DNA of 46,787 nucleotides from the NCBI GenBank assembly GCA_002069765.1, contig MWBZ01000025.1, positions 1 to 46,787 of the forward strand, in the 5' to 3' direction. The position numbers and the translations under genes are program-made. Positions 31,721-37,389 of this stretch are shown one piece after another. The notes below the pieces were generated by a model, which had not been told where the DNA came from, made no database searches, and saw only the letters and a list, made by a program, of their open reading frames with translations. Source of the DNA: a bacterium ADurb.Bin243. Lineage in GTDB: Bacteria > Muiribacteriota > UBA9980. The stretch's first letter is position 1; each line of letters begins with the position of its first letter.

Positions 31721-32473
31721 TTATTCTTCCTCTTCGTCGCCTTCGTCGTTTTTTTCTTCTATTTTCAGCCCCGGATGTATTTTTCGCACTATGGAACGGC
31801 AAAATTTGCGCGCGTAATCCCTGATCTCCGACTCGTCCTCGAAATAGTGCCTTTCGTTATCGAAATCAAAAATCGAGCGCTCTATAAGCTTTTTTTCGGA
31901 ATCTACAAGAAGCCCTATGAAAGTAAGAAGCGATATAAGGCCGAGCGCGGTAGCCACCATGCCCGGAAAAAAGAACGTGACCATAAGGGAGCGCACATAG
32001 TTGGCGGTAATCGTCATCACTGCGCCGGTAATAAAAAGACCAAGGCTCAGGTAAATAATAATGGAATAAAATTTCAGATGCATAATAACGGTGGCGCGGT
32101 ATTCCTCGTATGAGGCCTTTTCGCGCTCCACTTTACGCTGCTTCGCCCTGGCCATTTTTTCTTCTTCTATGCGTTTTTGCTCTTCTTTTTCCGACGTTCT
32201 GCGCTCGAATTCCTCGCGCGAAATCCATTCGCCTTCGACCTGCACAAAGCCGCGCGCCATCATTTCGCGCGTTCGGATCTGCTCGCGGACCTTGTCGAAA
32301 TCCTCGGGCGGCTGAGCGGCAGCATGCTGGCCGGGCGCCTCCTGCTGCTGAAGCTTTTTTAATTCCTGCTGAAGCTTCAGCTTCTTTTCGCGATTCTCGC
32401 GCTCGATTTCTTCGATTTTTTTTATTTCTTCCAGCTTGATGCGTTCGAGCTCTTCGCTCGTAAGTTCGGGCAC
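31721..32473 (-). CDS. Coiled-coil membrane protein of unknown function
   Basis: 250 residues. The first half (about 1-120) is extremely charged and Glu/Lys/Gln-rich coiled coil (EELERIKLEEIKKIEEIERE, EEQKRIEEEKMARAKQRKV). It is followed by two or three membrane helices (about 136-157, 164-190; FYSIIIYLSLGLFITGAVMT, FFPGMVATALGLISLLTFIG) and an acidic tail ending DDEGDEEEE-like. No family is recognised. It is packed between accC (3-bp gap) and xseA (5 bp), so it is almost surely cotranscribed with them. The coiled coil should face the cytosol. Confidence 0.65.
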   Translation of the reverse strand: MPELTSEELERIKLEEIKKIEEIERENREKKLKLQQELKKLQQQEAPGQHAAAQPPEDFDKVREQIRTREMMARGFVQVEGEWISREEFERRTSEKEEQKRIEEEKMARAKQRKVEREKASYEEYRATVIMHLKFYSIIIYLSLGLFITGAVMTITANYVRSLMVTFFFPGMVATALGLISLLTFIGLLVDSEKKLIERSIFDFDNERHYFEDESEIRDYARKFCRSIVRKIHPGLKIEEKNDEGDEEEE

Positions 32474-32476
32474 CTT

Positions 32477-33814
32477 CTACACCCCCATGCCGGCAATGAA
32501 ATTAGTGGTTATGTCGCCTTTAAGGAATTTTTCGTTTTTAAGCAGTTTTTCGAAAAAGGCTATATTGACAGTAAGCCCTTCGAAGCGGACCTCGGCCAGC
32601 GCACGCCTCATACGCGCTATAGCTTCTTTTCGCGTTTCGCCCCACGCGATTATCTTGGCTATCATCGAATCGTAATGAGGCGGTATTGAATAGCCGGAAT
32701 AAACATGGGTGTCCACTCTCACAAAAGGCCCTCCGCAGGGGATATAATTAGATATGGTGCCTACCTGCGGCATGAAGTGGTTGGCGGGATCTTCGGCGCA
32801 TATGCGGCATTCTATAGCGTAACCGTAAAAACGGATGTCGCTTTGCTTTATAGAAAGCTTCGCTCCGCCGGCGACCATTATCTGCTCTTTTAAAAGATCC
32901 ACGGAAGTAACCATTTCGGTTACCGGATGCTCGACCTGAATTCTGGAATTCATTTCCATGAAATAAAAATTCTTATGCTCGTCCATAATAAATTCTATGG
33001 TGCCCGCATTGGTGTATTTTACCGACTTGACCACTTTAACCGCTATATCGCCCATTTTACGGCGGAGTTCGTCGGTAAGAAATACGGAAGGCGACTCTTC
33101 GACGAGCTTTTGATGGCGGCGCTGAATTGAACAGTCGCGCTCGCCTAAATGCACCGCATTGCCGTAATTGTCGGCGATTATCTGAAATTCTATGTGGCGG
33201 GCATGCTCTATATATTTTTCCATATAGACTTCGTCGTTGTTGAACGCCATACGCGCTTCGTTTTTAGCGATTTCAAAGCTCGAGCGCAGGTCGGAATCGT
33301 TTCTGACTATGCGCATTCCTTTTCCGCCGCCGCCGCCCGAAGCTTTTATTATGAGAGGATAGCCTATTTTATTGGCTTCGAGAAGGGCCTGGGCGACCGA
33401 TTCAAGCGGGGCGGTCCCCGGCACGATAGGCACGCCGGCGGCCGTCATGGCTGCACGCGCCTCGGATTTATCGCCCATCAGCGTTATTATTTTTGGTTCG
33501 GGGCCTATGAAGATAAGCTGATGCTTCTTGCAGATGTCGGCAAAATCGGCGTTTTCCGATAAAAAACCGTATCCGGGGTGCACGGCGTCGCAGCCGGTGA
33601 TCTCGGCGGCCGAAATGATATTCGGCACGTACAGATAGCTTTCTTTAGGATTGGGCGGGCCTATGCATACGGCTTTATCGGCGAGTTTAACGTGAAGGCT
33701 TTCGGCGTCGGCCTCCGAATAAACAGCTACGGCTTCAATGCCAAGCTCGCGGCACGCCCTGATTATCCTCAGCGCTATTTCGCCGCGATTGGCTATTAAA
33801 ATTCTTTTTATCAT
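32477..33814 (-). CDS. accC: Acetyl-CoA carboxylase, biotin carboxylase subunit
   Basis: ATP-grasp enzyme that carboxylates biotin on AccB. The 445 residues match the family length (about 449). Motifs: ANRGEIALRIIRACRELGIE, the glycine-rich ATP loop KASGGGGGKGMRIV, HARHIEFQI, ERDCSIQRRHQKLVEESPS and the catalytic EMNSRIQVEHPVTE with its Arg. All key residues look intact, in contrast to the altered AccB just upstream (27-bp gap). Carboxyltransferase genes accA/accD are not in the window. Confidence 0.96.
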   Translation of the reverse strand: MIKRILIANRGEIALRIIRACRELGIEAVAVYSEADAESLHVKLADKAVCIGPPNPKESYLYVPNIISAAEITGCDAVHPGYGFLSENADFADICKKHQLIFIGPEPKIITLMGDKSEARAAMTAAGVPIVPGTAPLESVAQALLEANKIGYPLIIKASGGGGGKGMRIVRNDSDLRSSFEIAKNEARMAFNNDEVYMEKYIEHARHIEFQIIADNYGNAVHLGERDCSIQRRHQKLVEESPSVFLTDELRRKMGDIAVKVVKSVKYTNAGTIEFIMDEHKNFYFMEMNSRIQVEHPVTEMVTSVDLLKEQIMVAGGAKLSIKQSDIRFYGYAIECRICAEDPANHFMPQVGTISNYIPCGGPFVRVDTHVYSGYSIPPHYDSMIAKIIAWGETRKEAIARMRRALAEVRFEGLTVNIAFFEKLLKNEKFLKGDITTNFIAGMGV

Positions 33815-33841: not shown

Positions 33842-34294
33842 TTAATTGTTTATCCTTATTTTAAAAAGCGGCTGGCCGAACATTACGGGCGCGCCTTCGT
33901 CCGCGAGCATTTCTTCCATTACTCCGCTGTAAGGCGAGCTTATTTCATGCTCTATATTCATTGCCTCTATCATACACACAGTCTGGCTCTTTTTTACGGC
34001 GTCGCCTTTTTTTATCGGAGCGAGCTTGTCGGAAGTCATCGTGGAATAAAATCTTCCGACGATAGGGGCCGTTATGATCTTGCAAAACTCTCCGTCTTTT
34101 TTATCCCTTGTCGCTTCGGCGGCGCGCTGGTCTTTCGCGGCGGCCAGATTATCGATCCCCTGTATGGTTTCGCTTTCATCTTCGCGCGGCCTGAACTTGA
34201 TCTTGAGGCTCACGTCGCCGTCTTTCATTGAAAATTCATTATAGCGGCTTTGTTTTATAAACTTAATAAAACTCTTAATGGTATTGACGTTCAT
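33842..34294 (-). CDS. accB: Biotin carboxyl carrier protein AccB with the biotin-lysine replaced by Asn
   Basis: 150 residues: an N-terminal helical segment typical of AccB (NTIKSFIKFIKQSRYNEFSM), a short charged linker and a C-terminal biotinyl/lipoyl domain (TAPIVGRFYSTMTSDKLAPI ... SSPYSGVMEEMLADEGAPVM). It carries carboxybiotin between AccC and the carboxyltransferase. The universal EAMKM motif reads EAMNIEHEI here: residue 113, which should be the biotinylated lysine, is Asn (AAT at 33958-33956). No other lysine is in the hairpin. Either this copy is inactive or modified differently, another carrier exists, or the base is an error. It starts 2 bp after mazG. Confidence 0.88.
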   Translation of the reverse strand: MNVNTIKSFIKFIKQSRYNEFSMKDGDVSLKIKFRPREDESETIQGIDNLAAAKDQRAAEATRDKKDGEFCKIITAPIVGRFYSTMTSDKLAPIKKGDAVKKSQTVCMIEAMNIEHEISSPYSGVMEEMLADEGAPVMFGQPLFKIRINN

Positions 34295-34296
34295 CT

Positions 34297-35106
34297 TTAT
34301 CTTTCCTCCATAACTGGCTTGTTCTTAGCTAATTCCCACAGGCGGTCCATTTCGGCCATGGTAAGTTCTTTGAAAGGCCGCCCGTAATGCTTTTCAGAGT
34401 TGTTTTCTATGAAACCCACCCTGTCGATGAATTTTGTAATAGAGCTCACCAGGGCCGTTTCCGGATTAACCGAAAGGTGGCGCGAAAGATTGATAAGCGC
34501 AAAAAACATGTCGCCGAGCTCTCCTTCGATCTTTTCGCGCGCGCCGGTTTTTATTTCATGCGAAAGCTCCTCGAGTTCTTCTCTTACTTTTACGAGAGTT
34601 TCATCGTAAGTGGTAAAATCGAAGCCTATATTCGCCAGGCGCTTCTGGACTTTATAAGCCCACAAAAGCGGCGGAAGGCTCATAACGAGGTCTTCGCTTA
34701 TATTTTTTTTACGCTTGGCGCGTTTGATTTCGTCCCATTTTTTTATGACGTCGCCTGAATCGCTGACGTTCTGGTCGCCGAATACGTGCGGATGGCGCTC
34801 GATAAGCTTGTGGGATATTTTGTCGAGAATGTCGCCCATGTCGAATTTTCTTTCTTCTTCGCCGATTTTGGCGCAAAGCGAAATAAGCAGCAGAATATCG
34901 CCGAGTTCGTCCGCTGTTTTTTCATGGTCTCCGGCGATTATTTCATGATTGAGCTCATAGCATTCTTCGAGAAAAAAATCCTTCATGGTTTTGAGCGTCT
35001 GCTCGCGGTCCCACGGACAGCCTTTTTCGGGGTCGCGCAATTTATCGATAACGTCCATAAAATGGTTGAACTTGTGTAAAATTTCTTCCCGTCTTTTGTT
35101 TTTCAT
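34297..35106 (-). CDS. mazG: Nucleoside triphosphate pyrophosphohydrolase MazG
   Basis: 269 residues with two MazG domains. The first has CPWDREQTLKTMKDFFLEEC then ELNHEI ... ADELGDILL, and the second EELEELSHEI ... EGELGDMFFALINL, both with complete Glu/Asp metal ligands. The enzyme hydrolyses NTPs and dNTPs to monophosphates, cleaning abnormal nucleotides and lowering (p)ppGpp stress in some species. It lies 12 bp after the PpiC-like gene and 2 bp before accB. Confidence 0.95.
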   Translation of the reverse strand: MKNKRREEILHKFNHFMDVIDKLRDPEKGCPWDREQTLKTMKDFFLEECYELNHEIIAGDHEKTADELGDILLLISLCAKIGEEERKFDMGDILDKISHKLIERHPHVFGDQNVSDSGDVIKKWDEIKRAKRKKNISEDLVMSLPPLLWAYKVQKRLANIGFDFTTYDETLVKVREELEELSHEIKTGAREKIEGELGDMFFALINLSRHLSVNPETALVSSITKFIDRVGFIENNSEKHYGRPFKELTMAEMDRLWELAKNKPVMEER

Positions 35107-35118
35107 GGCCAGCCTTTT

Positions 35119-37389
35119 CTATCTTTGAAATATTTTCTGTTCGATCGCCTTCTGGATGCCTTCTTCGTTAAGCTCGTAAGCATAAGACTCTTTGAGCGAT
35201 TCGATATAGCTCATCAGCGCTTTTTTCTGAGTGGAGCCTATCAATTTTTCCTTGATTTTATTTTTTACTTCGTTGAAAACAAGCGGCTTTACCTGCTCGA
35301 GCTTTATTATGTGGAACCCGAAGCTTGTGAGCACGGGCCTTGAAACCCCGCCCGGTTTAAGTTTGACTACGGCGTCAGAAAAGCCTTCTACCATATCGTC
35401 GTAAGTAAAAGGCGGAAGCAGGCCGCCGTCGTTTTTAGAGACGTCGTCGGAATACTGGCGGGCCAGTTGAACGAAATCCTGCGTATCGATTTTATCAAAA
35501 ACGCTCATGGCTTTCTGGCGCGCGGCGTCGAGCTCGTTCTGGTCGTTCTGGTTTTTAACGGCGATCAAAATATGACGCACCTGGAATTCGGAATTGTTTT
35601 TTGCGTGGTATTCTTTGAGTTCTTTAAGCGAAGGATCTGCGATCTTTTTCGTGACTTCTTCAAAAATAAGAGCGCGGGCGAGAATCTTGTTTTCGATATC
35701 TTTCATTTCTTTTTTAAACGCTGGCGAATTTTGAATCTGAGCAAGGCCTGCCTCTTTTTTTAATATTATCCTGTTTATGATTTTCTCGACGATCGCCAAT
35801 CTGTCGGAATACTTGTTGAAATCGCTTTTGTGAAAAGAAGGCAGCTGAGAGATGCTTTCATTATAGTTGAGCCTGGTAATTTTTACGCCGTCAACCTCTG
35901 CGAAAACCTCGTTGAGGTCGCCCAGCGATTTAACGCTCAGAGCCGCCGCGTCGGATTTTTTTTCTTCGCGCGCTACTGCTTCTGAACCGTTGGACGATTT
36001 ATCGGCGGAGGATTTTTTATCTTTTTTAGAAGCCGTTTTTGTCTTTTTAGACGAGCTTTTCTTTCTGGAAGAACGATCGTTTTTCTTAGGCTGCGGTTTG
36101 CCGTTTTTTGACCCGTTTTCTTCGGAAACTTTTTCGGATTTTTTTTCTTCGCCTCCTGCGGCCGAAGCCTTTACAGCTTTAGGCTCCTTCGCCCCGGCCG
36201 TTTTGTCGGCTGAGACGATATCCAGCGGCAAAGCGCCCGACGGCTGGCCGATTTCTAGAGTATCGGCCGCGCCGCCGATCTTGTCGCGGTAAATCTTTAT
36301 ATTGTATTTAGCCTTGACGGTTTTCAGCCACTCTTCGAGGCGGTCGTTTTCGATCTTATTTTTAAGTTCGCCTTCTATAAGGTTTTTAACGTCTGAAAGC
36401 GGGACCGTTTTAGAATCATTTTTTTCCAGGACTTTCAAGATATAAAATCCGTTATTTCCGCGTATGATATTGGTATATTCGCCGAGGTTGCGTGAAAAAG
36501 CCTCGTTGATTATAGAGTTGTTGTTGTACATATCGCGCCTGAACGTTCCGAGAACGCCGTTTTTATGGGTTTTATCGTCGGAATGCTTTTCCCACACCTT
36601 TTCGAAGTGGGTGCCGAGGTCGAGCTCCATCTTGGCCTTTTCGATTTTATTGCGGGCGAGCTGTATGGAATTGGTGTCTTCGGGATTGAATTTTACGAAT
36701 ATATTAGCCAGAGTGACGCAGTCTTTTATTTGAAACCGCTGCTTGTTTTCTTCGTAAAAGGCGCTTATCTGGGCGTCGGTAATATTAATGGCTTTAATTA
36801 TTTCGTCTTTTATCTGCTTATAATAACTTTCGATTAAAAGATTTTCAAAAGCCTTTTCTATCTGTATTTTTATTTCGTCGCGCGAAGCCAGCCCTTTTTT
36901 TTCGGCTTCCATTACGACTATCTGGTTGACTAAAACCACTTCAGTCAGAAAGCTTTTTAGTTTTTCAAATGTGTTGAGAAACACCCTTGAATTTTGCGGC
37001 AGCTTTAAATATTCTTCTACAGCCTCGCTGGCTGTTATTTTTTTATTTTTTATTTTAGCGAGTACGAGAGAATTTTCAGGGTTTTGAGAAGCGGCCGCAG
37101 CGCCGGTGCCGGTAATGAGCGGAATAGAGCGTTTTACCACCTGGTCGGTGATAATGGGAATAAGAACGTTTGAAAGCTCTTCGGGCTTTAAAGTGTTTTT
37201 GCCCGCGCCGCCGTATTTTTCAAACGCGCGGTTCACTTCTTCCGCGACTATCTGCCTTACATGATTTTCGAATTTAACGTCGGGATTCTGGTCTACGTCG
37301 TAGGCCAATGAAATATACGATCCGCACAGGATAAAAAACATTGCCGCAAGAGCCGCAGCGGTTCTTTTTAAAATCAATTTATCATTCAT
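35119..37389 (-). CDS. Exported parvulin-type peptidyl-prolyl isomerase (SurA/PpiC-like) with duplicated modules
   Basis: 756 residues. A signal peptide (about 1-29, ending ISLA|YD) directs it across the membrane. Two SurA-like units follow. The first has a helical N-part (about 105-215) and a divergent parvulin-like domain (about 215-335, ending NNGFYILKVLEKN). After a Lys/Ser/Glu-rich linker (about 385-480, KKNDRSSRKKSSSKKTKTAS) comes a second helical part and a clear parvulin domain (about 595-715, FQVRHILIAVKN ... GGLLPPF ... FGFHIIKLEQVKP). The role is probably folding of exported or outer-membrane proteins. The basic linker is unusual. First gene of the long minus-strand run, with a promoter at 37436-37464. 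Confidence 0.88.
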   Translation of the reverse strand: MNDKLILKRTAAALAAMFFILCGSYISLAYDVDQNPDVKFENHVRQIVAEEVNRAFEKYGGAGKNTLKPEELSNVLIPIITDQVVKRSIPLITGTGAAAASQNPENSLVLAKIKNKKITASEAVEEYLKLPQNSRVFLNTFEKLKSFLTEVVLVNQIVVMEAEKKGLASRDEIKIQIEKAFENLLIESYYKQIKDEIIKAINITDAQISAFYEENKQRFQIKDCVTLANIFVKFNPEDTNSIQLARNKIEKAKMELDLGTHFEKVWEKHSDDKTHKNGVLGTFRRDMYNNNSIINEAFSRNLGEYTNIIRGNNGFYILKVLEKNDSKTVPLSDVKNLIEGELKNKIENDRLEEWLKTVKAKYNIKIYRDKIGGAADTLEIGQPSGALPLDIVSADKTAGAKEPKAVKASAAGGEEKKSEKVSEENGSKNGKPQPKKNDRSSRKKSSSKKTKTASKKDKKSSADKSSNGSEAVAREEKKSDAAALSVKSLGDLNEVFAEVDGVKITRLNYNESISQLPSFHKSDFNKYSDRLAIVEKIINRIILKKEAGLAQIQNSPAFKKEMKDIENKILARALIFEEVTKKIADPSLKELKEYHAKNNSEFQVRHILIAVKNQNDQNELDAARQKAMSVFDKIDTQDFVQLARQYSDDVSKNDGGLLPPFTYDDMVEGFSDAVVKLKPGGVSRPVLTSFGFHIIKLEQVKPLVFNEVKNKIKEKLIGSTQKKALMSYIESLKESYAYELNEEGIQKAIEQKIFQR

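Follow-up and report, generated by a model that had tools for sequence, protein, structure and literature searches.

A gene for a homologue of the biotin carboxyl carrier protein (BCCP, AccB) that lacks the biotin-acceptor lysine lies directly upstream of accC in contig MWBZ01000025.1 of the bacterium ADurb.Bin243, which was analysed over 46,787 nucleotides (the window). Judging from sequence comparisons, largely among draft genomes, its product, here termed AccB-N, is likely to be a conserved, non-biotinylatable AccB paralogue and a non-catalytic subunit, in the general sense of the term, of the heteromeric acetyl-CoA carboxylase, the enzyme of the step that commits carbon to fatty acid synthesis. 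The subunit reading is supported by the absence of the lysine, the selection acting on the gene, the presence of both BCCP domains, the position next to the sole and intact AccC, and a lysine-bearing AccB (AccB-K) encoded elsewhere in the genome. The simplest account of this arrangement is a division of labour after duplication, in which AccB-K would act as the biotin carrier and the Lys-less copy would keep an AccC-related role in assembly, stoichiometry or control.

The gene of AccB-N occupies 33842..34294 on the minus strand and encodes 150 residues. TIGR00531 matches residues 1-147 with 88 bits, short of the model's cut-off of 115 bits, and the profile of the AccB-N family matches the full-length E. 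coli BCCP (PDB 4hr7_B) with E = 9.4e-29. The alignment to this full-length protein places a BCCP N-terminal domain at residues 1-36 (34187..34294, minus strand); a biotinyl domain of the barrel-sandwich type follows at residues 73-150 (33845..34078, minus strand), with PF00364 matching at residues 74-146. Both domains of a functional AccB are present, as is the linkage to accC, with 27 bases between the two genes; the acceptor lysine in an EAMKM-type hairpin is missing. Codon 113 (33956..33958, minus strand) reads AAT, and the resulting Asn113 aligns to the biotin-accepting Lys122 of E. coli AccB. The translated hairpin motif CMIEAMNIEHEI (residues 107-118; 33941..33976, minus strand) contains no lysine and is otherwise near consensus (EAM-N-I). 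An initial reading of the sequence without database searches (the sequence-only reading) had described both the replacement and the lack of a nearby lysine, and both descriptions are borne out. Because structure prediction for AccB-N, run with four sequences as input, was poor (pLDDT 33), the fold was assigned by sequence alignment. E. coli AccB, encoded in the accBC operon, shares with AccB-N the two-domain layout, the place upstream of accC and the full-length profile match, but it is itself the carrier, via Lys122, whereas the carrier of the organism studied here is encoded by a separate gene.

Within the genus, Asn occupies site 113 in all four genomes (AccB-N identity 75-97%), the window's own and those of three close relatives, a comparison of the kind proposed in the sequence-only reading, and both Asn codons are used: AAT in the window, and AAC, AAT and AAC in the relatives at 97, 81 and 75% identity, respectively. 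A sequencing or assembly error at 33956, by which a Lys codon would have been misread as AAT, had been considered in that reading, Lys and Asn codons being one base apart. The presence of Asn in the three relatives, written with both of its codons, rules out such an error for all practical purposes, and in the phylum every other AccB-like gene linked to accC also lacks the aligned lysine, so that the residual probability of an error is negligible. Genetic recoding was set aside as well: the usual codes read AAT as Asn, and families differ in the residue at this position.

AccB-N is under strong purifying selection. Its dN/dS values among the genus genomes (NG86) range from 0.018 to 0.110, next to 0.09-0.14 for canonical AccB where computable and 0.01-0.04 for AccC; several of the underlying dS values exceed 1 and are rough. 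The relatives are draft genomes, and none of the genus genomes has a frame break in AccB-N. Residues invariant in the genus are concentrated in the N-terminal domain (32/36) and the biotinyl domain (60/78), with only 14 of 36 in the linker; canonical AccB shares this pattern of two invariant-rich domains and a variable linker. The selection data already contradict the notion of a decaying duplicate, according to which the carrier role has shifted to the copy on contig C4 and AccB-N is drifting to loss. A canonical AccB elsewhere in the genome and an acceptor-site residue that differs between families would be in keeping with decay, but the low dN/dS (0.02-0.11), the unbroken frame, the 75-97% identity and the retention of Lys-less linked copies in 35 genomes of the phylum make it very improbable. 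The earlier suggestion of a non-functional AccB consequently stands for biotin carriage and falls for the gene as such, given the strong purifying selection and the phylum-wide linkage to accC.

The neighbouring accC (32477..33814, minus strand; TIGR00514, 713 bits) encodes a biotin carboxylase that is ~54% identical to E. coli AccC. All active-site residues checked, including K116, K159, H209, E276, E288, N290, R292 and R338, are conserved, in agreement with the initial impression of an intact gene. It is the only AccC match at E <= 1e-60 in the window's genome; a single AccC was also found at this threshold in 12 of 19 other genomes checked. Directly upstream of AccB-N, separated by a gap of 2 bases, lies the gene of a MazG-type nucleoside triphosphate pyrophosphohydrolase (34297..35106, minus strand; NF007113, 279 bits), which is probably on one transcript with AccB-N. 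The surroundings further comprise a 756-residue protein (35119-37389) with two PpiC-type peptidyl-prolyl isomerase regions and a Lys/Ser-rich stretch between them and, directly downstream of accC, a 250-residue coiled-coil-like membrane protein (31721-32473), for which a family search gave no match above cut-off.

A second AccB copy, one of the options raised in the sequence-only reading, is indeed encoded in the genome: AccB-K, on contig C4, is a canonical AccB of 195 residues with the motif EAMKL and a TIGR00531 score of 134 bits, above the cut-off. The same contig carries carboxyltransferase-family genes at 46-48 kb, which are taken as accD/accA, and the biotin/lipoate ligase family has two matches in the genome. 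A further biotinyl-domain protein, with the motif EAMKM, is encoded on contig C95 (7526-14009; L116), where genes for an mmdA-like carboxyltransferase, this biotin carrier, a 5S/OadA-like subunit and methylmalonyl-CoA mutase stand in a row; they look like a decarboxylase- or transcarboxylase-type operon, of the propionate type, that should operate independently of AccC.

Across the phylum, 40 genomes were sampled, among them Candidatus Wallbacteria GWC2_49_35, with which the genus groups, together with a UBP16 genome (named contigs). An AccB-like gene is found directly upstream of accC in 35 of the 40, and the lysine is replaced in every one of these linked copies (S16, N13, Q3, G2, E1); of the unlinked copies inspected in the phylum, every one keeps it (29/29). 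The association between linkage and lysine loss (Fisher's p 7e-19) is overstated, since the genomes are kin. An AccB pair of this kind was not found in the two genomes of family f4, nor a linked copy in three incomplete genomes (64-75% complete). In the genus of G026, G031 and G033 (L099, L100, L101), the unlinked AccB has the odd motif VSSCKNLNEI, compared with VEAMKLMNEI, and the lysine is kept.

The variability of the site also bears on the proposal that AccB-N is an unusual carrier, bearing another prosthetic group or biotin on a different residue. The otherwise consensus-like hairpin would suit such a carrier, but because the replacement residue varies between families (N, S, Q, G or E in the phylum, D or H elsewhere), a conserved alternative attachment chemistry does not appear to exist; moreover, Gly lacks a modifiable side chain, and the hairpin in the window offers no lysine. 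We regard an unusual carrier as highly unlikely.

As a non-catalytic subunit, AccB-N would bind AccC, and perhaps AccB-K too, via its BCCP-type domains. In the AccC-AccB subcomplex it may take up places of the carrier while not turning over itself, and could in this manner determine how the carboxylase is assembled, its stoichiometry or its activity, like the BADC proteins of plants. We somewhat favour a role in assembly, or as a scaffold, over simple competitive inhibition because AccB-N is co-encoded with AccC and the functional carrier has its gene elsewhere in the genome. As a counterpoint, this linkage could be an inherited gene order, linked AccBs with the lysine being usual in other bacteria. 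Competitive inhibition proper, in which the Lys-less AccB displaces AccB-K on AccC and cuts malonyl-CoA flux under some condition without any role in assembly, is possible, if on the unlikely side: one proposed model has plant BADC act as an inhibitor that competes for BC (PMC7712654; both models in PMC11926652), and an AccC-binding carrier without the lysine would be inactive by construction. Being co-encoded with the sole AccC, however, AccB-N would accompany AccC whenever the latter is produced, as one would sooner expect of a permanent subunit than of a switch, although the point is not decisive.

AccB-N might, alternatively, have no enzymatic duties and control the expression of the accBC transcript. 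AccB has been reported to control accBC expression in E. coli and Bacillus, AccB-N is the first gene of the AccC-linked pair with a small intergenic gap, and its N-terminal domain is strongly conserved. Regulation alone is nevertheless improbable, more so than inhibition: the biotinyl domain is selected as well, with 60 of its 78 residues invariant, and the family matches of AccB-N include no nucleic-acid-binding family.

The non-catalytic subunit proposed here recalls the BADC proteins of plant plastids (BADC1-3 of Arabidopsis; PMC11926652, PMC7712654), which are BCCP-like, lack the biotinylation motif and occur alongside a normal BCCP. BADC is devoid of the AMKL motif, binds BC and BCCP, and was called unique to the plant enzyme in a 2025 paper (PMC11926652); its role is disputed between a ‘glue’ and an ‘inhibitor’ model (PMC11926652, PMC7712654). 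The corresponding features are found here in a BCCP homologue without the biotinylation lysine, accompanied by a lysine-bearing BCCP (AccB-K on C4) and a biotin carboxylase (AccC in the window). Unlike BADC, AccB-N is bacterial and encoded directly upstream of accC, and whereas BADC reportedly interacts with BC and BCCP and influences assembly or activity, the counterpart effect of AccB-N is proposed by analogy. AccB-N may work like a BADC rather than be one, with convergence as the default assumption. The Epsilon-type subunits of actinobacterial acyl-CoA carboxylases are not BCCP homologues and belong to a different carboxylase architecture. Like the proposed AccB-N, they are non-catalytic bacterial subunits of a biotin-dependent carboxylase, and they are cited as ‘glue’ (PMC11926652).

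A literature search of open-access papers found no description of a bacterial Lys-less AccB, and the present data suggest that a helper subunit resembling the one described as unique to plants also exists in some bacteria. If the bacterial equivalent is real, it would, being linked to the sole AccC in genomes of several phyla, offer simpler systems for settling the dispute between glue and inhibitor, and the accC-linked ‘accB’ of such genomes, readily mistaken for the biotin carrier in annotation, would not be the carrier.

Beyond the phylum, a wider sample of 382 genomes was searched, in which most of the accC-linked AccBs inspected have the lysine. Lys-less linked and Lys-bearing unlinked copies occur together in families f12, f25, f30, f37, f80, f164 and f230; f134 and f203 have a Lys-less linked copy, with the unlinked Lys-bearing AccB unconfirmed there. 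The replacement residues outside the phylum include D or H. Linked Lys-less AccBs were found in at least two further phyla: in that of G203, 14 of 149 genomes gave matches, all 14 Lys-less and linked, and in that of G346, 30 of 98 genomes did, all 30 Lys-less and 29 of them linked. The queries used for these two phyla were themselves Lys-less proteins and hence biased to such matches, so that the counts show spread, not frequency. Linkage of Lys-less AccBs to accC is not universal; L236 (G181, motif EAMN) and L229 (G318, ESMH) are Lys-less AccBs for which no accC was found directly downstream.

In trees of 151-158 AccB sequences, including reduced trees built without the motif columns, the Lys-less proteins cluster, with ~3 label changes; the deep branches are long and weakly supported, and the trees are compatible with one ancient loss of the lysine or several. 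In its widest form, the subunit reading would hold that in several bacterial phyla a non-biotinylated protein is the fifth subunit of the heteromeric acetyl-CoA carboxylase: an AccB paralogue of old origin whose gene has been kept next to accC, the true carrier being encoded at a different locus. Such a subunit would be the bacterial counterpart of plant BADC, either predating it or of independent origin; for this generalization we see the chances as evenly balanced.

Some linked AccBs of the wider sample have diverged near a retained lysine: L018 and L196 (G054, G201), L228 and L232 (G238, G095), and L255 and L265 (G185, G322), with motifs such as EAMKIRHDI (in G054 and G201), EAMKIIKDV and EAMKHKNEI. 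The genomes concerned also encode a more typical unlinked AccB, and these diverged, lysine-keeping proteins may represent intermediate states.
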